From positions 149,377 through 213,376 of the forward strand of contig JAUVXJ010000003.1 in assembly GCA_030603665.1 (NCBI GenBank): a DNA stretch of 64,000 bases. The letters run 5' to 3'. Numbering within the stretch: the stretch's first letter is position 1; each line of letters begins with the position of its first letter. The stretch is from Chloroflexota bacterium (GTDB taxonomy: Bacteria > Chloroflexota > Anaerolineae > UBA7937 > B3-Chlor). Position numbers and translations under genes: made by a program. This document shows positions 15,908 through 62,155 of the stretch, piece by piece. The notes beneath the pieces were generated by a model, which worked only from the letters and a program-made list of their open reading frames with translations, was not told the origin of the DNA and made no database searches.

Positions 15908-17203
15908 TTGAAAAAGCTCACCTACAGGGCAATTGCTCTGCTCTATCTCCCTCTGGCCATGAGCTGGGTGCTGATGCTCATGGAGGCACCCCTCATCAAC
16001 GCCTTTCTGGCCAGGGGACCCGATCCCGAGCTATCCCTAGCCGCCTTCGGAGTTGCCCTGGGCATCATCCTGGTGGTCGAGGCCCCGATCCTGATGATGC
16101 TGGAGCTGAGCATCGCTCTGTCAAGGAACCTCGCGTCTTTTCGCAAGATACGGCAATTCTACATCATCGTCGGCCTGGCCATCACTGCTCTGGGCATTGT
16201 CCTCTTCTACACCCCGGTATGTCGGCTTCTCCTGTGCGATCTCATGCACATCCCGCCCAGGATTGCGGAGGCCACGGTCCCTGCACTGCGCTTGCTTGTG
16301 TGGTGGTCTTTTCCCATCGGTTGGCGTCGCATCCATCAAGGTGTCCTCGTAAACGACGGGCGCACCAGGATCATCAGCGTGGCCACAGGCGTACGCCTCC
16401 TGGTGGTGCTTGCTGTGATGGCTGCCGGCCAGTCCCTAGGCACAGTGCCGGGCGCCACACTGGCCTCCGCGTCAATGCTCCTGGCCGTCGTTGTTGAGAC
16501 TGGCATCATCCACTGGGCAGCGGGGGCCACCTTCGAGGGCAGCCTGTCCCGGAAGCCCACAGAGGGAGAGACTCTCTCCCTCCGCTATCTATGGTTGTTC
16601 TACCTTCCCCTGGCCATCACCACGGTACTGCGCCAGGGCATACGGCCAGTGATAAGCGCGGGTATCGCTGCAGCACCCATGGCCGAGCTTTCCCTCGCCG
16701 CCTGGCCCGTGGCCTTCAGCCTGGCAAGCATCTTCTGGGGGCCCACCATGGGCCTGCAGCAGATCACCATCGCTTTGACCAGAGACCGAGAATCCTGGCA
16801 CACTGTGAGTCGCTTTGTGCTTGCCGCTGGCTTTGCGCTCACCTCAGCTCTAGCCCTGATCAGCTTCACGCCTCTTCTGTGGGTGGTGCTCGAACAACTT
16901 TTCGGACTCTCGGAGATCGTGGCGGAGCTGGCTGCTCCCGCCGCCAGGATCTTAGTCCTGCTGCCCCTTGCCTACACATTTCACGCCCTCTTCACCGGTC
17001 TTTTGGTAAGGCAAAGGCGTACGACCACAATTCGCACGGCCAAAGGGATCAACATGGGTGTCGTGGGGCTGGCGCTGTTCCTCGGACTGGCATACGGTGG
17101 GCTGTGGGGTTCCGTGCTGGGCGCGGTCGCCGTATGCTCGGGATCCTGGGCGGAGGCCGCCTGGCTGTACTGGCGCAGCAGGCCAGTGATCAGGCTCGTG
17201 TAG
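15908..17203 (+). CDS. MATE/MOP-superfamily-like membrane transporter (ANKH-like)
   Basis: A 431-residue protein with about twelve hydrophobic segments in two similar halves. Each half opens with a related motif (LLYLPLAMSWVLM near residue 11 and LFYLPLAITTVLR near 233), as expected for the internal repeat of the multidrug/oligosaccharidyl-lipid/polysaccharide superfamily. The LAAFGVA segment recalls ANKH-type (progressive ankylosis) members that move pyrophosphate, citrate or ATP. The substrate is unknown. The start is TTG at 15908 with AGAGG about 10 nt upstream. The next gene, ubiD-like, has its own -10 hexamer, so a shared operon is not certain. Confidence 0.7.
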   Translation: MKKLTYRAIALLYLPLAMSWVLMLMEAPLINAFLARGPDPELSLAAFGVALGIILVVEAPILMMLELSIALSRNLASFRKIRQFYIIVGLAITALGIVLFYTPVCRLLLCDLMHIPPRIAEATVPALRLLVWWSFPIGWRRIHQGVLVNDGRTRIISVATGVRLLVVLAVMAAGQSLGTVPGATLASASMLLAVVVETGIIHWAAGATFEGSLSRKPTEGETLSLRYLWLFYLPLAITTVLRQGIRPVISAGIAAAPMAELSLAAWPVAFSLASIFWGPTMGLQQITIALTRDRESWHTVSRFVLAAGFALTSALALISFTPLLWVVLEQLFGLSEIVAELAAPAARILVLLPLAYTFHALFTGLLVRQRRTTTIRTAKGINMGVVGLALFLGLAYGGLWGSVLGAVAVCSGSWAEAAWLYWRSRPVIRLV

Positions 17204-17287: not shown

Positions 17288-17316
17288 TTCTCCTGCACAC
17301 GGAACGAGAGTATAAT
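17288..17316 (+). promoter_or_regulatory. Promoter of the UbiD-AcnX cluster
   Basis: TATAAT at 17311-17316 with a weak -35 (TTCTCC, 17288-17293) 17 bp upstream. The -10 ends 15 nt before the ATG at 17332, leaving room for the AAGGAG site. Confidence 0.5.
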
Positions 17317-17331
17317 AGGGGCAGAAGGAGC

Positions 17332-18645
17332 ATGAGCCTGCGATTCTTCCTGGACAAGGCAAGAGAGTCTCGCCTACTCACTGTGGTCACTGACGAGATC
17401 GACCCCCACCTGGAGATGGCCCAGGTCATCAGCAGGCTGGAGGGGCCGCCCCTGCTCTTCGAGAGGGCGAAAGGCTACGATTGCAGCGTCGTTGCCAGTC
17501 TCTGCGGGGCGCGAGAGAACGTCGCCGTCGGCCTGGGAGTGGAAGTCGGTCAGTTGCTGTTCACCCTGGCGGAGGCTGTGGCCCACCCATCAGTACCCCC
17601 CGTGGTCGAATCAGGTCCTTGCCAGGAAGTGGTCGAGGAGCAAGTGGACCTGGAGACGCTCCCCATCTTGACCCATCTGCCACAGGATGCAGGTCCATAC
17701 ATCACGGCTGCGGTAGCGGTGACGAAAGATTCCGACCATGGCCGGAACGTCTCCTTCCATCGCCTACTGCGGCTGGACCATAGCCACCTCGTGGCACGAC
17801 TGGTCGAGGGGCGCGGAACGGACATGCTGCTGAAGAAGAGCCCTGGCGACGTGGAAGTTGCCATCTGCATCGGCAACTCCCTGCCCGTTCTCTTGGCCGC
17901 GGCCACCACTCCGTCTCCCGACGTTGATGAGTTCAGCATCGCCAACGCTCTGCACCCCACGACCCTGGTAAAATGTCTTACCGTAGACCTGGAGGTGCCT
18001 TCAGACACCGAAATCGTGCTGGAGGGACATTTCACGCGAGCCACCGCCCCGGAAGGTCCCTTTCTCGATCTCACCGGAACCATGGACATCGTCCGCCAGG
18101 GCCCCATCATCGAGGTCTCCTGTATCACCCGACGCCACGACACCATCTACCAGGCACTCCTGCCGGGCGGGTTGGAGCACAAGCTCCTCATGGGCTTGCC
18201 GCGAGAGCCCACCATCTTCGCCGAGGTGAGCAAGGCTTGCTGTTGTGTGAATGTGTTGCTCACCCCGGGAGCGGGCACCTGGTTGCACGGAGTGGTGCAG
18301 ATCCGGAAGCAAGACGCCGACGATGGTCGACGTGCCATTGAGGCGGCATTTCGGGGCCACCCATCCATGAAGCACGTGGTAGTCGTGGACGAAGACATCG
18401 ACATCTACGACCCCACCGAAGTGGAATGGGCCATAGCTACCAGGTTCCAGGCCGACCGGGATCTGATGGTCTTGGAGAATCAGCCGAGCAGCTCTCTCGA
18501 CCCATCAGCCACGCACGTGCCCGGGGAGAAGTCGCGCACCACGAAGATGGGTCTCGATGCCACCATCCCCTGGCGCAAACCCAACGGCGAACCTCGCGCC
18601 CCAGAGGAGAGAGAGCAGTTCAGAAGGATCAGGTACGAAGCCTAG
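17332..18645 (+). CDS. UbiD family decarboxylase, candidate anhydromevalonate phosphate decarboxylase
   Basis: UbiD enzymes use prenylated FMN for reversible decarboxylation of unsaturated acids. Family marks include RNVSFHRLLRLD in the cofactor region, and EGHFTRATAPEGPFLDLTG around residue 230, which carries the catalytic glutamates. At 437 residues it matches the short UbiD forms. It starts at an ATG preceded by AAGGAG and is followed after 9 nt by the aconitase X large subunit and then the small subunit. In archaea, these three activities convert mevalonate-5-phosphate to isopentenyl phosphate. That context, rather than sequence detail, supports the anhydromevalonate-phosphate assignment. 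Other UbiD substrates remain possible. No ubiX-like flavin prenyltransferase gene is in the window. Confidence 0.85.
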   Translation: MSLRFFLDKARESRLLTVVTDEIDPHLEMAQVISRLEGPPLLFERAKGYDCSVVASLCGARENVAVGLGVEVGQLLFTLAEAVAHPSVPPVVESGPCQEVVEEQVDLETLPILTHLPQDAGPYITAAVAVTKDSDHGRNVSFHRLLRLDHSHLVARLVEGRGTDMLLKKSPGDVEVAICIGNSLPVLLAAATTPSPDVDEFSIANALHPTTLVKCLTVDLEVPSDTEIVLEGHFTRATAPEGPFLDLTGTMDIVRQGPIIEVSCITRRHDTIYQALLPGGLEHKLLMGLPREPTIFAEVSKACCCVNVLLTPGAGTWLHGVVQIRKQDADDGRRAIEAAFRGHPSMKHVVVVDEDIDIYDPTEVEWAIATRFQADRDLMVLENQPSSSLDPSATHVPGEKSRTTKMGLDATIPWRKPNGEPRAPEEREQFRRIRYEA

Positions 18646-18654
18646 GAACGTGTC

Positions 18655-19866
18655 ATGCATCTGAGCGACGAAGAGCGAGCCATGTTGTCGGGGCGAGAGG
18701 GTCCAGCTGTTCAGAAGGCCATGGAGATCGTGGCTGCGCTGGGCGAGATATACGAAGCAGAGAGGCTTGTGCCTGTGGCCAGCGTTCAGGTGGCCGGAGT
18801 CAGCTATGGAAATCTGGGAGAGGCAGGATTGGATTTCCTTCGCGAATGGGCGGGGCAAGGGGCTCGCGTAGTGGTGCCAACCAGCCTCAACCCCGCGGGG
18901 ATGGACCTGGAGGCCTGGCGCGAATTGGGCGTACCGGAGCAATATGGCCAACGCCAGTTGGAGGTGATCGAAGCTTACCGCGCCATGGGCGTCAGCATCA
19001 GTTGTTCCTGCACGCCCTATCTAGCGGGAAACACCCCTGGTTTCGGGCAGCACATCGCCTGGAGCGAATCGTCGGCTGTGAGCTACGCCAACTCGGTGCT
19101 CGGAGCTCGCACCAACCGCGAAGGCGGCCCGAGCGCCCTGGCCGCGGCCATCACGGGCCGTACGGCGGAATACGGCCTTCACCTTGAGAAGAACCGGGTA
19201 GCCCATCTCATCGTGGAAGTCACCTGTGCGCTGAACTCGCTCTCCGACTTCAGTGCGTTGGGGTATATGGTGGGCAGGAAAGCAGCCGACAGGCTGCCCT
19301 ACTTCCGGCTTGACTCGGGGCTCGAGCCAGGTTCGGACGAACTGAAGGCCTTGGGCGCGGCCATGGCGGCCAGCGGAGCTGTTGCACTGTTCCATGTGGA
19401 GGGCGTTACTCCTGAGGCGCGCGATCTCCACATGTTGGCTGATGACGCCATCAGCATCACCATCGAGTCTCTCGACGAGGGGTACGAGGCCCTGGACGGA
19501 ACGAGCCAGGACATCGACCTGGTATGGATTGGTTGTCCCCACGCCTCCCTGGCCGAGATCGAGCACACAGCAGATGAGCTCCATGGCAGACAGCTGGATT
19601 CAAAGCTCTGGGTCACCACCTCGCGCGATGTTCTGAGTACAGCAAGGCTTGAGGGATCGGTCGATAGAATAGTGGCCAGTGCGGGCCGCGTGGTCGCCGA
19701 CGCTTGCTTGATAGGCGCTCCACTGCACGAAATGGGCATCACCAGCGTTGCCACCAACTCCAGCAAGGGTGCGTTCTATCTCCGTAGCCACACAGGCGTG
19801 CGAGTCCGGTTTGGGTCTCTGGCCGAGTGTGTGGATGCCGCCACCAGGGGAAGATGGCCCGCATGA
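18655..19866 (+). CDS. Aconitase X large (catalytic) subunit, candidate phosphomevalonate dehydratase
   Basis: The 403-residue protein is the AcnX catalytic domain (former DUF521): VPTSLNPAGMDL, the cysteine-bearing SCSCTPYLAGNTPGFG, the serine/asparagine-rich WSESSAVSYANSVLGARTN, EVTC and WIGCPHAS, whose cysteines could hold the Fe-S cluster. AcnX enzymes are either cis-3-hydroxy-L-proline dehydratases or, as separate large and small chains in archaea, mevalonate-5-phosphate dehydratases. The two-chain layout and the adjacent UbiD gene favour the second. It begins 9 nt after the UbiD stop and its TGA overlaps the small-subunit ATG (ATGA), giving tight coupling. Confidence 0.88.
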   Translation: MHLSDEERAMLSGREGPAVQKAMEIVAALGEIYEAERLVPVASVQVAGVSYGNLGEAGLDFLREWAGQGARVVVPTSLNPAGMDLEAWRELGVPEQYGQRQLEVIEAYRAMGVSISCSCTPYLAGNTPGFGQHIAWSESSAVSYANSVLGARTNREGGPSALAAAITGRTAEYGLHLEKNRVAHLIVEVTCALNSLSDFSALGYMVGRKAADRLPYFRLDSGLEPGSDELKALGAAMAASGAVALFHVEGVTPEARDLHMLADDAISITIESLDEGYEALDGTSQDIDLVWIGCPHASLAEIEHTADELHGRQLDSKLWVTTSRDVLSTARLEGSVDRIVASAGRVVADACLIGAPLHEMGITSVATNSSKGAFYLRSHTGVRVRFGSLAECVDAATRGRWPA

Positions 19867-20264
19867 AGCTCCGTGGCAGAGTGATCAGGCGAGGCCACGC
19901 GGAGGGAGAGGCACTGGTGTCCCAGCAGGCGATGAGCTTCTTCGGCGGTGTCGACCCCGAGAGCGGAGTGATTGTCGAGGCAGGCCACGAGCTGGAAGGT
20001 GAGTTCATCAGCGGCAAGATCCTGGTCTTCCCTCAGGGCAAGGGCAGCACGCTGGGTTCCTACACTCTCTACCGCCTGAGAAGGAACGACCTTGCGCCAG
20101 CGGCGATTATCAACGCACAGAGCGAGGCTATCGTGGCCGTGGGCGCCATCATTGCCGACATCCCCATGGTCGACCGTCTGGACATTTCTCAGATCAGGAC
20201 CGGGGATGAGGTGACCATCGAGGATGATCTGGTAGAGGTCAACCGCTTGGACAGCCCGGCATGA
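19863..20264 (+). CDS. Aconitase X small (swivelling) subunit
   Basis: This 133-residue DUF126/AcnX small-subunit protein begins KLRGRVIRRGHAEGEALV and carries the conserved GKGSTLGSYTLYRL motif, whose serines contact the substrate in the aconitase superfamily. It completes a heterodimeric dehydratase with the preceding gene. I chose the ATG at 19863 because it overlaps the upstream stop; an ATG three codons earlier (19854) is also possible. It is the last clear member of the three-gene unit. The 281-bp gap before the next gene shows no promoter-quality hexamers, so the oxidoreductase could be cotranscribed. Confidence 0.88.
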   Translation: MKLRGRVIRRGHAEGEALVSQQAMSFFGGVDPESGVIVEAGHELEGEFISGKILVFPQGKGSTLGSYTLYRLRRNDLAPAAIINAQSEAIVAVGAIIADIPMVDRLDISQIRTGDEVTIEDDLVEVNRLDSPA

Positions 20265-20545
20265 GAGCAACCTTACCAGGCCGAAGGGGCAGATTGCCAG
20301 CGGACGCTGATCCGCGATGCCTGGCTAGAGATGACTGCCCTTTCTGAGCCAGGCTCGGGGGCAGGAAACGACTTGAGATGAGGCGCTGCCTGAACGAGAG
20401 CCACACGCTTTCCACCTCAACCTCGCAGACCACCTGCTCACCGGCGAGCCGATCGTGGCTCCGTTGAAGCAGTCGGGGCGTGTGGTGACCATCCTCGAAG
20501 CAGCCGCACGTTCTGCGAGACGTGGCGGGACAGTGGAGGTATTGC

Positions 20546-21562
20546 ATGGTTGAGCGCGTCAAATGGGGCGTCCTGGGGAACGCAAACATAGCGCGCGTGT
20601 GCATCATACCGGCCATTCATAAGTCCAGCAACGGCACCTTGCATGCCCTCGCTACCTGTTCGCCGGAGCAGGTCTGGCAGCTGGGCACCGAACATGAGAT
20701 TCAGCATGTTTACGACGACTACGACGCACTGATCGCCGACCCTGAGATAGAGGCGGTATATATCCCCCTCCCCAACCATCTCCACCACCCCTGGGCGCTC
20801 AAAGCGCTCAGCGCAGGAAAGCACGTGCTCTGCGAGAAACCCATGGCGTGCGATGCCCGGCAAGCCGAAGAGATGGCCGAAGCGGCGGAGGATTCTGGAC
20901 TACTGCTCATGGAGGCGTTCATGTACCGGTTCCACCCCCGCAGCAGGCTCATCAAGCAGATGGTGGACGACGGTCACATCGGCACGCCAAAGTTGGTGCG
21001 ATCTGCCTTCTGCCACCTGATGGATGAAGATGAGATGGCGAGAGACGACAACATACGCCTGAGGCCCGAAACGGGTGGTGGTGCGTTGCTGGACCTAGGA
21101 TGCTATAGCGCGAGCGTTGCCCGTTGGCTGATGGGCGGTGAGCCAACCCACGCGCAGGGCCAGGCAGCCTATCACCCCAGTGGGGTCGACCTTCACTTCG
21201 TCGGCAGCCTTCGCTTTCCCGACGGTGGCTTGGCCACTCTGGAGGCCAGCTTCACAGCTGCGCTACAGCAAACGTACACGGTAGTGGGGACCGGGGGCGC
21301 CATCGACCTGCCTCACGATGCGTTCATACCCTGGGAGAAGGATGCCCAGTACACTATACGCAGGGCGGACGGGGAAGAAGGAAGCCAGCACACAGTGCCG
21401 GGGGCGGATGAATACCAGCTCATGGTGGAGCACTTCAGCGAAGCCATCCTGGGTCGGACTAGCCTGGCTTCTCCACCGGAGGACAGCGTCCGAAACATGC
21501 TAGTGCTGGATGCACTCGCAGAGGCCGCGCAGACCGGCCGGACCGTTGCCCTGCGTCAATAG
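20546..21562 (+). CDS. Gfo/Idh/MocA family oxidoreductase
   Basis: An NAD(P)-dependent oxidoreductase of 338 residues. The N-terminal Rossmann fold is WGVLGNANIARVCIIPAI, a single-change variant of the usual G-x-G-x-I-A. The catalytic EKP is in HVLCEKPMAC, and the C-terminal substrate domain contains GGGALLDLGCYS with the conserved D-x-G-C-Y/H pattern. Members oxidise or epimerise sugars, inositols or related polyols; the substrate cannot be read. The start at 20546 is fixed by GGAGG at 20535-20539. It follows the AcnX genes on the same strand but has no obvious pathway link with them. Confidence 0.92.
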   Translation: MVERVKWGVLGNANIARVCIIPAIHKSSNGTLHALATCSPEQVWQLGTEHEIQHVYDDYDALIADPEIEAVYIPLPNHLHHPWALKALSAGKHVLCEKPMACDARQAEEMAEAAEDSGLLLMEAFMYRFHPRSRLIKQMVDDGHIGTPKLVRSAFCHLMDEDEMARDDNIRLRPETGGGALLDLGCYSASVARWLMGGEPTHAQGQAAYHPSGVDLHFVGSLRFPDGGLATLEASFTAALQQTYTVVGTGGAIDLPHDAFIPWEKDAQYTIRRADGEEGSQHTVPGADEYQLMVEHFSEAILGRTSLASPPEDSVRNMLVLDALAEAAQTGRTVALRQ

Positions 21563-21748: not shown

Positions 21749-21876
21749 GGGACCTCAGACGGCACTGGCGGGCGCGTTTGCCGCGAGTGCTGGGGACTCC
21801 AAGCTACTGACGGCAGCACTTGACCAATCCTCTCTTTACAGGCATTGCGGCCATCCTGTGATACTCGGAGTTGAAG

Positions 21877-24800
21877 ATGTCAGAGATGATCAACCCGTAC
21901 ATCGCTGGCGCTCCAGTCACCGAAAAGACCATGTTCTTCGGCCGTCAGGATGTCTTCGAGTGGGTGCAACGCTCCCTCACCGGCAAGTTCGTAGACCATA
22001 TCCTCGTCATCCATGGCCAGCGCCGAATCGGGAAGACCTCCGTCCTTAAACAGATCCCGTTCCATCTCCCCGCGACCTATGTCCCCGTCTTCTTCGACCT
22101 TCAGGGACGTACCCATACCTCCCTAGACCGCTTCCTATGGCGCCTCGCCAAGGAGATCACCCGCACCCTCCGCACCGCCGAGGACATCTCCCTGCCAGAA
22201 CTCACCAGAGAGGAGTTCTCTGAGGACCCAGAGCTGTTCCAGAGCCAGCTCCTCCCGCAGATTGGCCAGGCTATCGGCGACCGCCGGCTGCTCCTCATCT
22301 TCGACGAGTTTGACTCCCTCGAGGAACCTACCGCCAGGGAGATGCTGACCCAAGACCTGATTCCATACTTCTCCCGCCTGATGCACGCCCCTGGACCCCT
22401 CGCCTTCATCTTCTGCATAGGCTCGTCTGGCCGCAAACTGGAGCACATGCAGGCCTCGTACACCGACTTTTTCCGCATCGCGCTCTACAGGAAGATCAGC
22501 TTCCTGGAGAAGGAGGAAGCCGCCCGCCTCATCACGCAGCCCGCTGCTGGCGTCATCGAGTACGACCCTCAAGCCGTCCAGGAAATCTTCCGCATCACCT
22601 CCGGCCATCCCTACTTCACCCAGCTCCTCTGCCATGAGCTCTTCGGCCACTGCCAGAAGAGCGGCCAGAGGCACATCTCCCTCCAGGATGTCGAGGCTGT
22701 GCTGGATGACGTGGTGGAGAGGGGGACCGTCAACCTCAAGTTCGTATGGGATGACGCCTCAGATCCCGAAAGGTACGTTCTCACCGCCCTCTCGGTGGCT
22801 GAGGATGGCCGGAACCAACAGTCCATACACACGTTCCTCGAGGACAAGAAGGTGCGCATCTCTCCGCGGGAGGTGGGGGACTCGCTGAGGCACTTGGAGG
22901 AAAAGGACGTCCTGGCCCCTGACAACACCTTCACCGTGGACTTGATGAGACTGTGGCTTCTGGAGAACAAACCTCTGGAGCGAGTGATCGAGGAACTCAT
23001 AGAGGTCAGCCCCATCGCCACCAGATATATCGAGATCGCCGAGGAGTTCCGCGAGACAGGAAACCAAGAGGAAGCTCTGGACAGCTATCGGCGAGCGCTG
23101 CGCGTTGACCGTCAGAATCTGGCAGCCCAGGTGGGTATCGCATCCCTCATCTATGAGCAGGGAGATCTACCTCAAGCCGTGGAGGAGTACCAGAATGCTC
23201 TCGATATCGACCCGGAGGACATCGGCGCCAGATCCGGCTTTTGCCAGTGCCACATGGCCCTGGGCGACCATCTGAGGGCGGAGGGACAGATAGAGGAGGC
23301 CCTCGAACACTATCACCAGGTTCTCAAGATCAATGACCAGCACCTGGAAGCGCGCGAGAGACTGGCGGCCCATCAAGCTCAGCGGGGAGACCAGCTAAGG
23401 TCAGAGGAGCGCTTCGACGAGGCCATCGAGGCCTTCGAGGCGGCCCTGGAGTTCGTGACTGAGGATCCTGTCCTCACAGAGCGGCTGGGCGAGGCCCGGG
23501 CAGCCAAGCGAGCCAAGGGACTAGCCACCCTTAGAGGCACGGGAGAGGAACAGTTCCAGGCGGAGAGATGGGAGGAGGCCATAGCCTCCTTTGAGGAGTA
23601 CCTTTCCCTGGAACCTGAGGAAAAGGACGCGGTCCAGGCGGTTGAGGCCAGGCTCGCTGAGGCCAGAGAGCAGGGCGAGTTGGCAGGGATCTATGACCAG
23701 GCCAAGACGGCGCTGAGCGAGAAACGGTACGCCGAGGCGGTGCGCCTTCTCACGGAGATCATCAACCGCGACGTGGGCTACAAAGATGCCACCAGGTTGC
23801 TAACCCAGGCGGTGGAACTGCAACGGGAGTCAAGACCTTTCTGGAAGGACATCCGAGTACTAGCAGGGGCCGGCGGAGGCATCGCCCTCGTAATCATCGC
23901 TATCTTGGCAATCAGATTCCTCCCAAGCTCTTCCGAAACACCAACGCCGCACACCCCTGTAGCCGCGCTGCCAGAGACACCAGCTCCCATCCCCGTGGCT
24001 ACAGAGGAACCAAGACCGCTCACGTCTACTCCGATGGCACCCGCGAGGACACTGACGCATCACAGCGCCCCGGTGCGAAGCGTGGCCTTCTCCCCAGATG
24101 GGGCGACCTTGGCCTCGGGGTCGCAGGACAAGATGGTGACTCTTTGGGATGTGGAGAGCGGCCAGTACGTGCGCCAATTCGGCGGGATGGGGATAGTGCA
24201 CAGCCTGGCCTTCTCCCCCGACGGACAGACCCTGGCCACGGGGTCGATGGAGAGCATGGTGAAGCTGTGGCGGGTGGCTGATGGGACGCAGATAGGCGAT
24301 GCCCTCGACGGGGGCACGGACAACGTGTCGAGTGTGGCCTTCTCCCCCGACGGGGAGCTCCTGGCCACTTCGGGTTGGGTTGAGGGGGTCGTGCTCTGGC
24401 AGGTATCCGATGGGACCCTCCTCCGCTCCATGGAGGGGCATGTCGATGATGAACCCAGCGTAACCTTCTCCCCCGACGGGCAGACGCTGGCCGCGGGGGA
24501 TTGGCAAGGCAGGGTGCTGCTGTGGGACGTGGAGAGCGGCCAGTTGTTGCGCACTTTGCAGGAGCGCACGGAACAGCAGGTCTGGAGCGTGGCCTTCTCC
24601 CCAGATGGACTGACCTTGGCCTCGGGATCTGCTGATGAGATGGTGATCCTATGGGATGTGGAAAGTGGCCAGCGACTGCACACCCTCAGACCACACAGAG
24701 GAGAGGTGTGGAGTGTGGCCTTCTCCACCGATGGTCAAGTCCTCGCTTCAGGGTTGCAGGAGTCGACTGTGGTATTGTGGGACGTCGAGACCGGAGAGGA

Positions 24801-26667
24801 AGTGGGCGTCGCAGAAGGGCACACGAGTGGCGTGAGGAGCGTGGCCTTCTCGCCTGACGGGCGGACCCTCGCCTCGGGCTCCGAGGACACAACGGTGATG
24901 CTATGGAACATGGAGGCCGCGACGGCTGTCCCGGAAACTGCCTCCCCCGCCCCTGCGCCAGTGCCCATGGGCGAGACGCTGCAAACCTGTGGCGATGATG
25001 TGTGTATCTCCGATCCACAAGGCGAGAGTGCTCCGCTGGAGCTTGCGGGGAGCTACGGTAACTTCTGGGGGTTGCCAGCCTGGGCACCAGACGGCGCGCG
25101 GTTCGTATTCAGCGCCTGCGACTTAGCTGAAACCGAGGTTCCCGCTTGTCAAGGCCTCTTTGTGGCCAACAGGCACAGCAGCGACGTCATGGCACTGGTG
25201 GTCCCTTCCTTCAGTCATGCCGGGGTGCCGTCGTGGTCTCCGGACGGGGAATGGATCGCCTTCAACGACACGGGCGATCTAGCCATCGTTCGACCCGATG
25301 GGACAGGCAAGACCACCCTCGGGCCTCAAGAGACCCTCCCTCAAGGCGTTGCCTGGGCGCCGGATAGCCAGCGAATCGCCTGGGTGGCACAAGGCGGATG
25401 CCCGATTCCGGACGCTTCGTGCAAAGTCTGGGTGGTGGATCGTGACGGGGGCGAGGCGAGAGCCGTCTTTGAATCCTTGGAGGAAGCGCTGTCTGGAGAA
25501 CTGATCGCCTGGAGCCCTGATGGAAGATCGGTGGCGGTCTCGCTGCCCTCTGGGCCCCCCTTTCTGATAGAAGCAGATTGCCCCGACAAGCCGTATGGAT
25601 GCGATGAGTCTTCCAGGACCCAGTTGGACGGCATCCCGCAACACTGGATGCACAGTTTCTATCCTCAGTGGGCAGGTGAAGCGGAGATGGAGACAGCCAG
25701 CCCAGCCGTTACTCCTACCTTGTCGACGCCGCCAGCGGAGCTGGGATCGGCGGAGAATCCGGTCAAGTTGATGTCCGTACCGTCGGTGGATGTGGCTGCG
25801 GGCGAGTCCATGGCCAACTGGATCACCGAACAGACAGGGGTCCACTTTGAGGTCTCGGTTCCCGTCTCCTACGCGGCCACCATTGAGGCCATGTGCGCCG
25901 CTGAGGGCGATACCATGGCCTTCATACCCGGCGTGGGGTACGTCCTGGCCAATGACAAGTGTGATGTAGACGTGGCTCTGGCCACGATTCGCTACGGGCG
26001 TACGGCCTACTGGACCCAGTTCGTGGCGCGTCGCGACAGCGGCATCCAGTCGCTGGAGGATCTGGAGGGCAAGAAGTGGGCGGCGCCCAGTCTGACTTCA
26101 ACGTCCGGTTATCTGTGGCCGTCGGTGTTGCTCTCGATGGAGGGCATTACACCGGGGGAGACGGTGGAGGCAGGAGGGCACCCGCAGGCCGTGCTGGCGG
26201 TGCTGGACGGGACCGCCGACTTCGCCACCTGCTACTTCTCACCGCCTGGCGATGAGATAGAAGACTGGTCCGAACGAGACCCGCCGGAACCAGGAGGCGA
26301 CTACACCATCGAGGAGCAGGACGATGGCAGCTTCAAGGTGTGGCAGGCCGGCCTCAGAATCCGCGACGCCCGTGTCGCAGCGATGGCCACCAATCCTGCT
26401 GCGGTAGATGAAGTCGGGATCGTGGCTCTCAGTGAGCGCATTCCCAACGACACCGTTAGCTTCGTGAGCGACTTCCCGGCGGAGATGAGGGAGACTATCG
26501 TCCAGGCACTGATCGACTACGCGGCGACGGACGAGGGTCAGGCGGTGCTGGCAGACGAGGATTTCTACGACATCACCGGCTTCGGCCGCGTGGACGATGC
26601 GTACTACGAACCGGTCCGCAACGCCATCAACACACTGGGATGGACGGAGGAGGACATCCTCGAGTAG
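21877..26667 (+). CDS. Transmembrane STAND-like ATPase-TPR-WD40-PhnD receptor protein
   Basis: A 1,596-residue multidomain protein. In order: AAA/STAND-like ATPase (1-300; Walker A GQRRIGKTS near 47, Walker B LLLIFDEFDSL near 140) with a winged-helix-like segment to ~380; TPRs (~385-655); one membrane span (~660-682); a Pro/Thr linker; a seven-bladed WD40 propeller (~723-1015); a second TolB-like propeller (~1030-1265); and a PhnD-type phosphonate/phosphate-binding domain (~1290-1596; NPVKLMSVPSVD, TSTSGYLWPS). The topology suggests ligand binding outside and nucleotide-dependent switching inside. The start ATG at 21877 has GGAG 6 nt upstream. No ABC permease or ATPase is adjacent, so the PhnD domain probably senses rather than imports. 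A second ATPase gene follows. Function is inferred from domains only. Confidence 0.85.
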   Translation: MSEMINPYIAGAPVTEKTMFFGRQDVFEWVQRSLTGKFVDHILVIHGQRRIGKTSVLKQIPFHLPATYVPVFFDLQGRTHTSLDRFLWRLAKEITRTLRTAEDISLPELTREEFSEDPELFQSQLLPQIGQAIGDRRLLLIFDEFDSLEEPTAREMLTQDLIPYFSRLMHAPGPLAFIFCIGSSGRKLEHMQASYTDFFRIALYRKISFLEKEEAARLITQPAAGVIEYDPQAVQEIFRITSGHPYFTQLLCHELFGHCQKSGQRHISLQDVEAVLDDVVERGTVNLKFVWDDASDPERYVLTALSVAEDGRNQQSIHTFLEDKKVRISPREVGDSLRHLEEKDVLAPDNTFTVDLMRLWLLENKPLERVIEELIEVSPIATRYIEIAEEFRETGNQEEALDSYRRALRVDRQNLAAQVGIASLIYEQGDLPQAVEEYQNALDIDPEDIGARSGFCQCHMALGDHLRAEGQIEEALEHYHQVLKINDQHLEARERLAAHQAQRGDQLRSEERFDEAIEAFEAALEFVTEDPVLTERLGEARAAKRAKGLATLRGTGEEQFQAERWEEAIASFEEYLSLEPEEKDAVQAVEARLAEAREQGELAGIYDQAKTALSEKRYAEAVRLLTEIINRDVGYKDATRLLTQAVELQRESRPFWKDIRVLAGAGGGIALVIIAILAIRFLPSSSETPTPHTPVAALPETPAPIPVATEEPRPLTSTPMAPARTLTHHSAPVRSVAFSPDGATLASGSQDKMVTLWDVESGQYVRQFGGMGIVHSLAFSPDGQTLATGSMESMVKLWRVADGTQIGDALDGGTDNVSSVAFSPDGELLATSGWVEGVVLWQVSDGTLLRSMEGHVDDEPSVTFSPDGQTLAAGDWQGRVLLWDVESGQLLRTLQERTEQQVWSVAFSPDGLTLASGSADEMVILWDVESGQRLHTLRPHRGEVWSVAFSTDGQVLASGLQESTVVLWDVETGEEVGVAEGHTSGVRSVAFSPDGRTLASGSEDTTVMLWNMEAATAVPETASPAPAPVPMGETLQTCGDDVCISDPQGESAPLELAGSYGNFWGLPAWAPDGARFVFSACDLAETEVPACQGLFVANRHSSDVMALVVPSFSHAGVPSWSPDGEWIAFNDTGDLAIVRPDGTGKTTLGPQETLPQGVAWAPDSQRIAWVAQGGCPIPDASCKVWVVDRDGGEARAVFESLEEALSGELIAWSPDGRSVAVSLPSGPPFLIEADCPDKPYGCDESSRTQLDGIPQHWMHSFYPQWAGEAEMETASPAVTPTLSTPPAELGSAENPVKLMSVPSVDVAAGESMANWITEQTGVHFEVSVPVSYAATIEAMCAAEGDTMAFIPGVGYVLANDKCDVDVALATIRYGRTAYWTQFVARRDSGIQSLEDLEGKKWAAPSLTSTSGYLWPSVLLSMEGITPGETVEAGGHPQAVLAVLDGTADFATCYFSPPGDEIEDWSERDPPEPGGDYTIEEQDDGSFKVWQAGLRIRDARVAAMATNPAAVDEVGIVALSERIPNDTVSFVSDFPAEMRETIVQALIDYAATDEGQAVLADEDFYDITGFGRVDDAYYEPVRNAINTLGWTEEDILE

Positions 26668-57493: not shown

Positions 57494-58630
57494 CTACTTA
57501 TACTCGGGGAACTCATCCTCCTTGAAGGTAGCCACGGGGAGTTCTTCTTCCAGGCTTGCACCAGGCAGGTAGTCGAACAACTCCTGAACCTTGTCGCCCA
57601 CTGCGCGGAACATCAAGGTCAGGGGAAGGTCGCTGGGGCAGGCGCTCTCACACATGCCGCACCCCACGCACGAAGTAACCATGTGGTTCATCCTGGTCAG
57701 CTGGAAGAGCAGTGTATCGCTGGGCATTCTGGCGGCGCCCTTCCTATCGGCCCACAAGAGATACCGGTCCGAAGGATGTCGGAAGGTGTCCGTCTCGAAG
57801 ATGCATTCCTTGCAGTAGCAGATGGGACAGGCCTGGGCGCAGTTGTGACAGGCGATGCAGGTAGAGAACTGAGCCAGGAGGCTGGATGTGTCCTTCACCG
57901 TCTCGTGGAAGCGGGCGAAGGCCTCATCTCTGGCTCTCTCCCTACCCGAGACCAGTTTGGCCACAGCCTCCTCGCGACCGGGAGCGTCCCCTTCCTGAAG
58001 GCCCAGCTTTTCCACAATCTCCTGCCCTATCTCCCCCTCCATCTCCAAGAGGATCGCGGTCTCGGTGTCCACGCCGAAAAGACCGATGTTGACATCCACA
58101 TTACTGGCTATGGGGTGTTCGCATATCTGGCAGGCCACCCGAAACTCGTAGCCATCCATTGGCACGACCTGGCCCTCCCTCGCCCCCCGCAACTGGTCAG
58201 CTGAGGAGCCAGCTCCATCATCCAGCTCACCGGCCAGCTCCGCGTACTGCGTCGCCTCGTAAGACCCGAGACAGTCTATGCCCAGGGTGACCAGGTTGTC
58301 GAGGGTGGCTTGCTGAAGTTTGACCAGTTCAAAAAGCGCCCTCATCTCGCAGGACTTCAACACCACTCCCACTCTTTCCCTGTTGCCTCGGCGGGTCAGG
58401 TTCGACACCAGCTTCGCGGAGTTGACCATCATCACCGGTGCCAGGGGGTTGGCGTTGGCCAGCTTGTCCGGATCCTTGATCAACGTTTGTACAACGGCAT
58501 CCCCGGAGGGTAGCTCCACGGGAACGAGCAACGCATCCACGACCTTAGCCTCCAGGAGTCGCCGCAAGAACTCCCGCAAGGCCGCGACAACGTCACCCTC
58601 TTTGACCTCCAGCACCGCCTTCACGCTCAT
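57494..58630 (-). CDS. FrhB/FdhB-like flavin and 4Fe-4S electron-input subunit
   Basis: A 378-residue iron-sulfur flavoprotein of the coenzyme F420 hydrogenase/dehydrogenase beta-subunit family. The N-terminal half has the FrhB-type core (SNLTRRGNRERVGVVLKSCEMRAL split by the basic motif). Two ferredoxin motifs follow: CIACHNCAQACPICYC near residue 260 and CVGCGMCESACPSDLP near 322. Such subunits pass electrons from F420H2, formate or NAD(P)H to Hdr complexes; which donor is used here cannot be read. The ATG at 58630 follows GGAGG. It is 24 bp downstream of the mvhD-like gene. Confidence 0.85.
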   Translation of the reverse strand: MSVKAVLEVKEGDVVAALREFLRRLLEAKVVDALLVPVELPSGDAVVQTLIKDPDKLANANPLAPVMMVNSAKLVSNLTRRGNRERVGVVLKSCEMRALFELVKLQQATLDNLVTLGIDCLGSYEATQYAELAGELDDGAGSSADQLRGAREGQVVPMDGYEFRVACQICEHPIASNVDVNIGLFGVDTETAILLEMEGEIGQEIVEKLGLQEGDAPGREEAVAKLVSGRERARDEAFARFHETVKDTSSLLAQFSTCIACHNCAQACPICYCKECIFETDTFRHPSDRYLLWADRKGAARMPSDTLLFQLTRMNHMVTSCVGCGMCESACPSDLPLTLMFRAVGDKVQELFDYLPGASLEEELPVATFKEDEFPEYK

Positions 58631-58654
58631 CAGTCGCGCCTCCACACCAACCCG

Positions 58655-59077
58655 CTAGATCGCCCAAGCCTCGCCCATGGGATTGGGACCTTTCTCCTTG
58701 AGGGTCTGCACCATCTCCGTGATTGTGTCCGCAAAGAGCTTGCCTTCGCTGGCGCTTATCCAGCGCAACCACACGCGGTCGGGATCGAGCCCCAGTTGTT
58801 CCAGGATGCTCCTCAGAATGGCCATTCGACGACGCGCTTTGAGGTTCCCGCTCTGGTAGTGGCAGTCTCCGGGATGGCAGCCCCCGATGAGCACACCGTC
58901 TGCGCCCTCCAAGAGAGCCTTGATGACGTAGATCGGATCCACTCCCCCGGTGCACATCACGCGAATCGATCGGACATTGGGCGGGTACTGAATCCTAGAC
59001 GTGCCGGCCAGGTCCGCACCCGTGTACGCACACCAGTTGCAGAGGAACGCCACTATTCTGGGCTCGAATTCGTCCAT
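58655..59077 (-). CDS. mvhD: MvhD-type 2Fe-2S electron-transfer subunit
   Basis: A 140-residue MvhD/FlpD protein. Conserved cysteines occur in FLCNWCAYTGAD, MCTGGVDP and GGCHPGDCHY, which bind a [2Fe-2S] cluster. In methanogens it links hydrogenase or formate dehydrogenase to HdrA. Here it sits between HdrA (45 bp upstream) and the FrhB/FdhB-like subunit, so it likely relays electrons between them. A GGAG site precedes the ATG. Confidence 0.92.
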   Translation of the reverse strand: MDEFEPRIVAFLCNWCAYTGADLAGTSRIQYPPNVRSIRVMCTGGVDPIYVIKALLEGADGVLIGGCHPGDCHYQSGNLKARRRMAILRSILEQLGLDPDRVWLRWISASEGKLFADTITEMVQTLKEKGPNPMGEAWAI

Positions 59078-59122
59078 TACCCTAGCTCCATATGGTACGC
59101 AGTAACGTCCGCACCACCCCGG

Positions 59123-62100
59123 CTAGTCCAGGGCTACATCCAACATGGCCATCAGCTGCGTCTTCTCGAAGACCCGCTGCTGGATGGCGCCGCTTGGGCA
59201 GGCCACCGTACAGGCACCGCAACCTTGGCACAACAACGGAGCAATCTCAGTGATGCCGGTCTCCTCGTCAGCCACCAAAGCCTCGAAGGGGCAGGTGTCA
59301 ATACACAGTCCGCACGCAATGCACAAACGCGGGTTGACGAACGGCACAGCAGATTGGCCCTCCAGGCGCTGCCTGGCCAGCATCACCGCCGCGCGCATGG
59401 CGGCACCCCTGGCCTGAGAGATGGACTCCTCGCTGTTCTTCGGGCTGTGACAGAGCCCACAGAGGTACATCCCCACGGCTTCAAAGTCCATGGGCCGCAC
59501 TTTGGTATTCGCCTCCTCAAAGAAGCCATCCTCGTCAAGGGGCACGCCCAGTAGCTCCGCCAAACCCTGGTTATCTCGGGGAGCCACCCCGGTGCTCAAC
59601 ACCACGAGGTCCGCCTCCAGCGTCAGATCTGCATCCAGTATCGGCTCGTGAATCAGCACGCGCAGCCTATCCTTCGCCGCCTCCACCCTGGGCTTGGCCT
59701 CTGGCTCGTAGTGGATGAAGATCACGCCTTGCTCGCGAGCCTGCCGGTAGTAGTCCTCCTGGAAACCATAGGTCCGCATGTCGCGGAAGAGAACGAGGAC
59801 GTTGGCCTCGGGATTCAACTCTTTGATACGAAGGGCGTTCTTGATAGCAACAGAGCAACAAATGCGGCTGCAATAGGGACGGTCTGGCTCCCGCGAGCCC
59901 ACGCACTGGATCATGACCACGTTCTTCACGCCAGCGAGGGCCTGTGCGTCACTGGAGATCCGCTCCTCCAGTTCTCGCTGGGTAAGCACTTGGGGATGCT
60001 GCCCGTATAGATATTCTGTGGGCTCAACCTCGTCGCCCCCAACGGACACGACTATCACTCCATGGACAAGCTCTTCAGTGCTGCCGTCCGCCGAGATCAG
60101 CGATGTGTACCGCCCGGGCTCCCCCGTCATCTGTGTCAGGTCAGATCCAAGGTGGACTGTGATCAACTCGCTCGCCTCCACCTGGTCTATCAGGCCCTGC
60201 AAGTACTCCTGCGGGTCCCCGCCACCGAGAGTGTAGTGGATGTGGCGCAGGTTGCCTCCCAGCTCCATCTCCTTCTCCACCAGATGGACAAAGAAGCCCT
60301 GTCGCGCCAGGGACAGGGCAGCTTCCATGCCCGCCACGCCACCACCGACCACCAGGGCTCCCGGAGAGACTTCCGCATCCGCTCCCTCGCTCGGCGTCAG
60401 GAGGCGTGCCTTGGCCACGGCCATGGCCACCAGTTGCCTGGCCTTGAGGGTTGCCTGCTCAGGCTGGTCCCTGTGCACCCACGCGCATCCCTCGCGCAAG
60501 TCCGCCCTCTCCAGCAAGCAGGAGTTCAGACCCGCCTGCCGTAGCGCATCTCCCATGGCCTCGCCGTAAAGACGGTGTGTGCAGCCAGCTACCACCACGC
60601 GGTTCAGCCCCTCCTCCTGGATGGTCGACTTCAGTTCTTTCAGACCCTCAGCCTGGCAGGCGGCCTCCAACTGGGCAGTGTGTGCCACGTCCAAGAGCTG
60701 ATCTGCAAACTCCGTCACTGAGGGTAAGTCCACCACCTCAGCGATGGTTCCGTCACATCGGCAGATGAATACGCCTACCCGCGGATCCTCGTCGCTCACA
60801 TCTCGCTGGTCTGGATACTCCGCTGCGGTCCTCACCAGGCGACGGCCTGCCAGCACCTCCGCAGCACCGGCAGCCGCGCTGCTGGCCTCCACCACAGTCT
60901 GTGGGATGTCCTGAGGCTCCCTGAAGCCTCCGGCCACGAAGACTCCAGGGCGATCCGTGTTTTGGGGGGAGAAAGGCTCTGTCCGTGCGAACCCATACTC
61001 GTTGAGAGACACACCGACGCTTTCCGCCAGGGCCTCCGCCGCAGCAGGAGGTCCGAATCCAACTGACAAGACGACCAGGTCGAACTCTTCCTCCTGAGGA
61101 CGACCTTCATCATCCACGCATGAAGCGGTGAGGTTCTTGCTGTCGGTCAGTTCTCTCACCCTGGAGATCATGCTCCGTCTGTACAGGATGCCATACTCGC
61201 CTTTGGCTCGCTCATAATACCGTTCAAAACCCTTGCCGAATGTCCTCACGTCCATGTGAAAGACGGTCGTATTGAGGTCCGGCACGCGCTCCTTGGCCAG
61301 CATAGCCTGCTTGGTGGCATACATACAGCATATGGACGAGCAGTAGCCCCGGTCGCAGGAGATGTCGCGCGATCCCACGCACTGGATGAAAGCCAAACTC
61401 CGAGGGGCCTGACCGTCGGAGGTCCTGGCCGGCAGGCCCAGAGAGGGACTGGTCAGACTGAGCATGCGCTCAAACTGAATGCCGGTCAGCACATTCTGGT
61501 GCACGCCGTAGCCGAATTCGGTCTTCAGGCTGGCATCGAACGGTTCGAAACCCGGTGTCAAGATGACTGCGCCAGCGCTGAGCGTTGAGCGGTGGTCCTT
61601 CATCTCCAGATCGATGGCGCCTGGCCGGCAGACCTTCAGGCACTCGCCACACTCTGTGCAGGCACCCATGTCTAAAACGAAGGTCTCCGGAAATGCCTGG
61701 GGGTACGGGCGATAGATGGCGCGCCGCGTCTCCAGTCCCGCACCCAGCTCCCTGGGTACCTCCACGGGGCAGGCGGCGGCGCACTCCCCGCAGCCGTTGC
61801 AGAGGTCTGCGTTCACGTACCTGGACTTGTGGAGGATGGAGACCTGGAAATCGCCCGGCTCTCCCTCCAGGCCTTCTATCTCGGCATAGGGGAGAAGCTC
61901 GATGAGAGGGTGCCGACTGCATTCGATGAAGGGGCACAAGGCTGGCAGCGTTGGCGACATGAAGCAGACACCACAGGTGTTGGTGGGGAATGTCCTGTCC
62001 AGCAAGGGAAACAATCCGCCTATGGCGGGTGCCCTGTCCAGCAGATGGACTCTGAAGCCCATCTCCGCCAGCAGCAGCGAAGCCTGCATCCCAGCGATGC

Positions 62101-62155
62101 CTGCTCCCACTACCAGGACCTCTCCCTCATTCCCGCCCTCTTCCGTCACACTCAT
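59123..62155 (-). CDS. hdrA: Double-module HdrA, FAD/4Fe-4S electron-bifurcating subunit
   Basis: A 1,010-residue protein containing two HdrA-like flavin modules. The first FAD motif is VVGAGIAGMQASLLL near residue 16 and the second LVVGGGVAGMEAALSL near 600. Each module has its own cysteine block, CVGSRD...YCSSICC and CVGSREPDRPYCSRICC. Ferredoxin motifs lie at ~118 and ~168 (CNGCGECAAAC, CTECGECLKVC) and at ~947 and ~980 (CIACGLCIDTC, CQGCGACTVAC). A typical HdrA is ~650 residues with one FAD. HdrA bifurcates electrons between ferredoxin and a disulfide or thiol partner. Two FADs in one chain imply two redox branch points or a built-in heterodimer. It lies between fused HdrCB and MvhD. Confidence 0.92.
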   Translation of the reverse strand: MSVTEEGGNEGEVLVVGAGIAGMQASLLLAEMGFRVHLLDRAPAIGGLFPLLDRTFPTNTCGVCFMSPTLPALCPFIECSRHPLIELLPYAEIEGLEGEPGDFQVSILHKSRYVNADLCNGCGECAAACPVEVPRELGAGLETRRAIYRPYPQAFPETFVLDMGACTECGECLKVCRPGAIDLEMKDHRSTLSAGAVILTPGFEPFDASLKTEFGYGVHQNVLTGIQFERMLSLTSPSLGLPARTSDGQAPRSLAFIQCVGSRDISCDRGYCSSICCMYATKQAMLAKERVPDLNTTVFHMDVRTFGKGFERYYERAKGEYGILYRRSMISRVRELTDSKNLTASCVDDEGRPQEEEFDLVVLSVGFGPPAAAEALAESVGVSLNEYGFARTEPFSPQNTDRPGVFVAGGFREPQDIPQTVVEASSAAAGAAEVLAGRRLVRTAAEYPDQRDVSDEDPRVGVFICRCDGTIAEVVDLPSVTEFADQLLDVAHTAQLEAACQAEGLKELKSTIQEEGLNRVVVAGCTHRLYGEAMGDALRQAGLNSCLLERADLREGCAWVHRDQPEQATLKARQLVAMAVAKARLLTPSEGADAEVSPGALVVGGGVAGMEAALSLARQGFFVHLVEKEMELGGNLRHIHYTLGGGDPQEYLQGLIDQVEASELITVHLGSDLTQMTGEPGRYTSLISADGSTEELVHGVIVVSVGGDEVEPTEYLYGQHPQVLTQRELEERISSDAQALAGVKNVVMIQCVGSREPDRPYCSRICCSVAIKNALRIKELNPEANVLVLFRDMRTYGFQEDYYRQAREQGVIFIHYEPEAKPRVEAAKDRLRVLIHEPILDADLTLEADLVVLSTGVAPRDNQGLAELLGVPLDEDGFFEEANTKVRPMDFEAVGMYLCGLCHSPKNSEESISQARGAAMRAAVMLARQRLEGQSAVPFVNPRLCIACGLCIDTCPFEALVADEETGITEIAPLLCQGCGACTVACPSGAIQQRVFEKTQLMAMLDVALD

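Follow-up and report, generated by a model that had tools for sequence, protein, structure and literature searches.

Most archaea make their isoprenoid precursors from mevalonate phosphate in two steps, a dehydration by phosphomevalonate dehydratase (PMDh) and a decarboxylation by trans-anhydromevalonate phosphate decarboxylase (AMPD). To our knowledge, this route was regarded as confined to archaea until one case in Chloroflexota, Ca. Promineifilum breve, in which PMDh and AMPD activities were reportedly shown; its close Chloroflexota relatives are said to rely on another modified pathway. The archaeal mevalonate pathway of Ca. Promineifilum breve was reported by Kanno et al. 2024 (doi 10.1128/aem.01106-24, as cited in PMC13001223) and, going by that secondary account, the gene cluster described here is not the first of its kind, because the pathway had already been reported in Chloroflexota. 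Both organisms belong to the phylum for which the pathway has been claimed, and in the present one it is predicted from the genes. The known Chloroflexota route, found in Chloroflexus/Roseiflexus-type bacteria, uses a phosphomevalonate decarboxylase (PMD) together with isopentenyl phosphate kinase (IPK) (Dellas et al. 2013, PMC3857490).

The present cluster lies in a 64,000-nucleotide stretch of DNA (the window) from a Chloroflexota bacterium of the class Anaerolineae. It consists of a UbiD-family gene and the genes for the large and small subunits of aconitase X (AcnX-L and AcnX-S), and it is very probable that the three supply the enzymes for both steps of the archaeal mevalonate branch. The initial annotation had proposed such a branch in a bacterium, and the proposal gained support from active-site residues, phylogenetic trees, synteny, the other pathway genes of the genome and the fact that alternative routes were not found.

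Results

The three genes had been described as tightly coupled and as occupying positions 17288 to 20264. All of them are on the + strand and their Pfam domains were confirmed; the end at 20264 was retained, but the start was 44 bases too early, as the first ATG of UbiD read from the sequence is at 17332. The UbiD-family gene (17332-18645, 437 aa), a candidate AMPD, has the three-domain UbiD architecture with all three Pfam domains over cut-off, and TIGR00148 was also matched over its cut-off. It is followed after a gap of 9 bases by the AcnX-L gene (18655-19866, 403 aa), a candidate PMDh large subunit that matches the full PF04412 profile (E 9.5e-150). The stop codon of AcnX-L overlaps the ATG of the AcnX-S (swivel) gene (19863-20264; PF01989, E 3.5e-33), a candidate PMDh small subunit, in an ATGA at 19863-19866. 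Separate, adjacent genes for the two subunits, here with overlapping ORFs, are the arrangement of PMDh (AcnX type IIb). A longer ORF for AcnX-S opens with GTG at 19827, but the start is probably at 19863 because the alignment to 7cnr_B, an archaeal small subunit, begins immediately 3' of that ATG.

Upstream of the UbiD start on the same strand, a TATAAT at 17311-17316 and a ribosome-binding-like AGAAGGAG at 17323-17330, both read from the sequence, are a possible -10 element and a possible Shine-Dalgarno of the cluster. As a consensus scan of the region upstream of UbiD gave no paired -35/-10 promoter, the promoter is put forward as a suggestion. The neighbouring genes, a putative membrane protein upstream (15908-17203, with a weak ANKH match) and a Gfo/Idh/MocA oxidoreductase downstream (20522-21562), are not pathway genes. 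Elsewhere in the window, a 1598-aa ORF (21871-26667) combines WD40 propellers with a C-terminal phosphonate-type substrate-binding domain, and an HdrA-like FAD/4Fe-4S oxidoreductase (1010 aa) is found beside an FrhB/FdhB-like 4Fe-4S protein (57497-62155), which suggests a heterodisulfide-reductase-like electron-transfer complex.

The best solved relative of AcnX-L was TkPMDh, the PMDh of Thermococcus (7cnr, 360 bits, compared with 238-243 bits for cis-3-hydroxyproline dehydratase), and the best match of AcnX-S was 7cnr_B (E 3.7e-42). The cluster- and mevalonate 5-phosphate-binding residues of TkPMDh were listed by Watanabe et al. 2021 (PMC8184944), and 14 large-subunit positions, including three cysteines, were mapped onto TkPMDh by alignment. 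AcnX-L was identical at 14 out of 14 of these cluster- and substrate-contact positions: A47, G48, V49, S50, N53, N79, C110, E129, S130, S131, C283, C342, K361 and Y365 of TkPMDh correspond to A47, G48, V49, S50, N53, N79, C119, E138, S139, S140, C294, C351, K371 and Y375 of the window protein. Of these, C119, C294 and C351 occupy sites A, 1 and B and are the cysteines of the cluster. Site C, where type I AcnX has its second Cys, carries no cysteine, as in PMDh (PMC10040528). The small subunit keeps the catalytic Ser-Thr pair, and its pocket shows two conservative hydrophobic changes relative to TkPMDh (L27 to F39 and V64 to L76; positions taken from the 7cnr_B alignment after correction of a one-residue numbering offset).

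The AcnX pair could instead be a cis-3-hydroxyproline dehydratase. The two enzymes belong to one family, AcnX, in which the fold and a conserved Cys, Glu and Lys are shared, and copies of the hydroxyproline type do occur in the class (second copies in G034, G027 and G042). The best NCBIfam match of the window's AcnX was also the cis-3-hydroxyproline dehydratase model, although its 339 bits were below the cut-off of 700. However, in the hydroxyproline-type copies (L107, L109, L119 and L120) position 47 is D and the GVS..N phosphate-site pattern is not kept, whereas all of the PMDh residues are present in the window. The AcnX gene of S. meliloti is flanked by epimerase and trans-3-hydroxyproline dehydratase genes in a hydroxyproline operon, and no hydroxyproline genes adjoin the window cluster. 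In the AcnX tree of 95 rows, which like the UbiD tree was a quick one with SH-aLRT support only, the hydroxyproline-type sequences, including the S. meliloti gene, formed a separate clade cut off by a 99% branch. Identity as a hydroxyproline dehydratase was therefore rejected on residues and tree, and we regard it as extremely unlikely.

Within the same tree, the window copy grouped with its own family (99) and then within a 38-row clade (100) whose members are all from Chloroflexota or same-class genomes, and this clade was placed among archaeal PMDh. A comparison of the AcnX pair with both groups had been proposed in the initial annotation, with a grouping among the hydroxyproline dehydratases as the outcome that would count against the archaeal branch; AcnX-L fell on the PMDh side and has the PMDh substrate residues. 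In the UbiD tree, a Chloroflexota clade (98) was nested in a clade of mostly archaeal, AcnX-linked UbiDs, and the two other UbiD paralogues of the window's genome (L138 and L139) fell outside that clade. This nesting gives the best support for the direction in which the genes probably moved, from archaea to Chloroflexota.

As archaea provide the closest relatives outside Chloroflexota, the stretch of contig could have been archaeal contamination of the metagenome-assembled genome (MAG). However, bacterial genes such as FtsK and DNA polymerase I lie in the same window, and the cluster, which the other family members share at about 70% identity, belongs to the 38-row Chloroflexota clade. Because of this recurrence across the family and the class, contamination was rejected and its probability is close to negligible. 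Viral carriage was rejected too, as no relatives were found among viral contigs.

A few loci were placed differently in the trees. The AcnX and UbiD of G028 (L011 and L128), a same-class MAG with 5% contamination, were placed within archaeal groups close to DPANN and Bathyarchaeota and not with the other Chloroflexota, which may reflect contamination or a second transfer. Two further loci carry ubiD-acnX with ubiX: L087:4469-9090, from a MAG labelled Deltaproteobacteria, which forms a long isolated branch, and L067:562-5034, labelled 'bacterium', whose label may be wrong because it is sister to a Nitrososphaerota archaeon.

The archaeal loci used for synteny were fetched by AcnX similarity. 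Their order is commonly mvk-ubiD-acnXL-acnXS-ipk-idi2, for example in Bathyarchaeota (L058, L059, L064, L066 and L082), and mvk-ubiD-acnXL-acnXS-ipk are found together in the Chloroflexota loci L027 and L038. As further Chloroflexota and many archaea have the same gene order, the arrangement in the window is not due to chance.

In the window's genome, the mevalonate pathway set is dispersed. The mevalonate kinase (MVK), IPK, HMG-CoA reductase (HMGR), ubiX and type 2 IDI (IDI2) genes, for which the initial annotation had suggested a search, were all present and scored over their cut-offs, and with an HMGS gene they make up the whole series of HMGS, HMGR, MVK, IPK and IDI. Contig C23 has HMGS next to HMGR (HMGS of archaeal type, TIGR00748 537 bits; HMGR NCBIfam 448 against a cut-off of 260), and MVK and IPK are approximately 0.7 kb apart on contig C9 (NCBIfam 253 against 163 and 188 against 120, respectively). 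On contig C4, IDI2 (NCBIfam 419 against 281) is followed by a polyprenyl synthetase, and UbiX (C4:67509-68051, 244 bits against 109) lies 3.6 kb downstream of IDI2, all within about 5.2 kb; UbiX could supply UbiD with prenylated FMN. On C9, an RNA 3'-terminal phosphate cyclase and a metallo-beta-lactamase/RNase Z-like gene come after the MVK, cupin-like and IPK genes (L115:10265-12254).

Compared with the archaeal PMDh/AMPD systems of Aeropyrum pernix and Thermococcus kodakarensis, the window's genome has the same two-subunit AcnX with cluster and substrate residues, the same UbiD clade and gene order, and the same pathway genes (MVK, IPK, IDI2, UbiX and an archaeal HMGS). It differs in its bacterial host, in an AcnX-L that is about 46-55% identical to archaeal large subunits, and in the spread of its pathway genes over at least four contigs (C4, C5, C9 and C23).

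Alternative routes were searched for in the same assembly, which is 91% complete. It holds one GHMP kinase gene and no second one was found, and therefore no IspE, PMK or MvaD/PMD. The MDD_C domain of PMD/MvaD was found neither in the window's genome nor in its three family members. IspH was not found in the window's genome nor in any of 60 relatives, and DXR was not found in the window's genome, with three weak partial matches among the relatives. The MEP pathway was rejected because the searches found no IspH in 60 genomes and no DXR in the window's genome. Diphosphomevalonate decarboxylase and MEP genes had been expected to be missing, which agrees with these searches, and a complete MEP pathway without mevalonate kinase, the finding that would have spoken against the branch, was not seen, as MVK is present and IspH and DXR were not found. 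As the genome is 91% complete, these absences are not final and each alone is no proof.

The 60 relatives were sampled from the family, order and class to which the window's genome belongs. A full or near-full-length AcnX was present in 33/60 and an AMPD-like UbiD also in 33/60 (two as fragments); 31 genomes had both, two had AcnX alone, two had AMPD alone and 25 had neither. MDD_C was over its cut-off in 25/60. AMPD occurred without MDD_C in 28 genomes, MDD_C without AMPD in 20 and both together in five (G009, G010, G020, G028 and G047), so that 53/60 carried at least one of them. Fisher tests gave p of about 2e-12 for AcnX with AMPD and about 5e-6 for AMPD against MDD_C, values that overstate the case because the genomes are related and not independent. 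The PMDs of the five double holders align through most motifs, one of them (L133, in G010) being cut by a contig end. AMPD and PMD are therefore not strictly exclusive, as five relatives carry AMPD and an intact-looking PMD. In a sample of 400 genomes from the phylum, a close AMPD-like UbiD was found in 13, of which 11 (the window's own counted) belong to the window's class.

These counts bear on the possibility that the organism uses PMD and IPK as in Roseiflexus, with its PMD gene in the 9% that the assembly lacks, and with AcnX and UbiD being auxiliary or acting on another substrate. Such a pathway shares its start steps (HMGR and MVK) and its end step (IPK) with the one proposed here and differs in its ATP-dependent GHMP-family decarboxylase. 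In its favour, PMD is the known route of the phylum (PMC3857490), families elsewhere in the order carry it (G004-G007), and the two sets coexist in five relatives. However, MDD_C was found neither in the window's genome nor in any of its three family members, AcnX and AMPD are present in both of the more complete family members, and AMPD and MDD_C alternate strongly across the class. The PMD explanation is therefore very unlikely, though less so than the hydroxyproline one, and the archaeal branch is preferred.

Variant arrangements were also seen among the relatives. In G126 (99% complete), a PMD gene adjoins, and is divergent from, ubiD-acnXL-acnXS-ubiX (L150:4560-8714), placing both routes side by side. 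Caldilineales-like loci (L125, L136, L042, L045, L047 and L049) have a PMDh-type AcnX-L without an adjoining small subunit or UbiD, and in the Caldilineales-like genome G030 the UbiD is about 32 kb from AcnX-L, beside mvk. In one genus (g40), a single-chain AcnX is located directly 3' of an AMPD-like UbiD that is 56-58% identical to that of the window (L121:6276-8126 in G042 and L148:3523-5334 in G404). The two single-chain proteins are 73% identical to each other and have the large domain followed by the swivel domain, opposite to the order in type I AcnX. That of G042 is very divergent (33% identical to the window) and keeps the PMDh phosphate-site pattern (SGVSTNCESNCCKY), making the single-chain AcnX of this genus a candidate fused PMDh.

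Discussion

The analysis covered gene identity and content, homology, the conservation of residues, the placement in trees, synteny, and which other pathway genes were or were not detected. From these we infer the substrates, activities, cluster type and cofactor use of the enzymes, their essentiality and their place as the sole isoprenoid route of the cell. In the proposed pathway, the two AcnX subunits would form a PMDh, with an Fe-S cluster on C119, C294 and C351, that converts mevalonate 5-phosphate to trans-anhydromevalonate 5-phosphate. UbiD, using prenylated FMN made with the genome's UbiX, would decarboxylate this product to isopentenyl phosphate, which the IPK encoded beside MVK elsewhere in the genome would convert to isopentenyl diphosphate, to be isomerised by type 2 IDI.

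What goes beyond the earlier report is the distribution, with an AMPD-like UbiD in more than half of the sampled relatives (33/60) that largely alternates with PMD. No earlier report of the class-wide alternation, the double holders or the candidate fused PMDh was found in the papers searched. The cluster also corrects the 'aconitase X', 'DUF126' and 'UbiD family' annotations in these genomes, and it supplies bacterial PMDh and AMPD candidates for isoprenoid engineering.

We lean slightly towards the view that the archaeal branch is no oddity of a single bacterium but a main isoprenoid route of the whole class Anaerolineae, acquired once from archaea near its base, perhaps with one extra event, and alternating since then with the PMD route. 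The PMD route spends ATP at the decarboxylation, and the other needs a probably oxygen-sensitive Fe-S enzyme and prenylated FMN. As about half of the sampled relatives have the archaeal route, in alternation with the other decarboxylase, the group offers a natural experiment in the swapping of a segment of an essential pathway. If the branch has been acquired and exchanged in this way, the stages of the replacement could still be seen in the genomes that hold both sets, one of them with the two side by side, and in the genus with the candidate fused PMDh.
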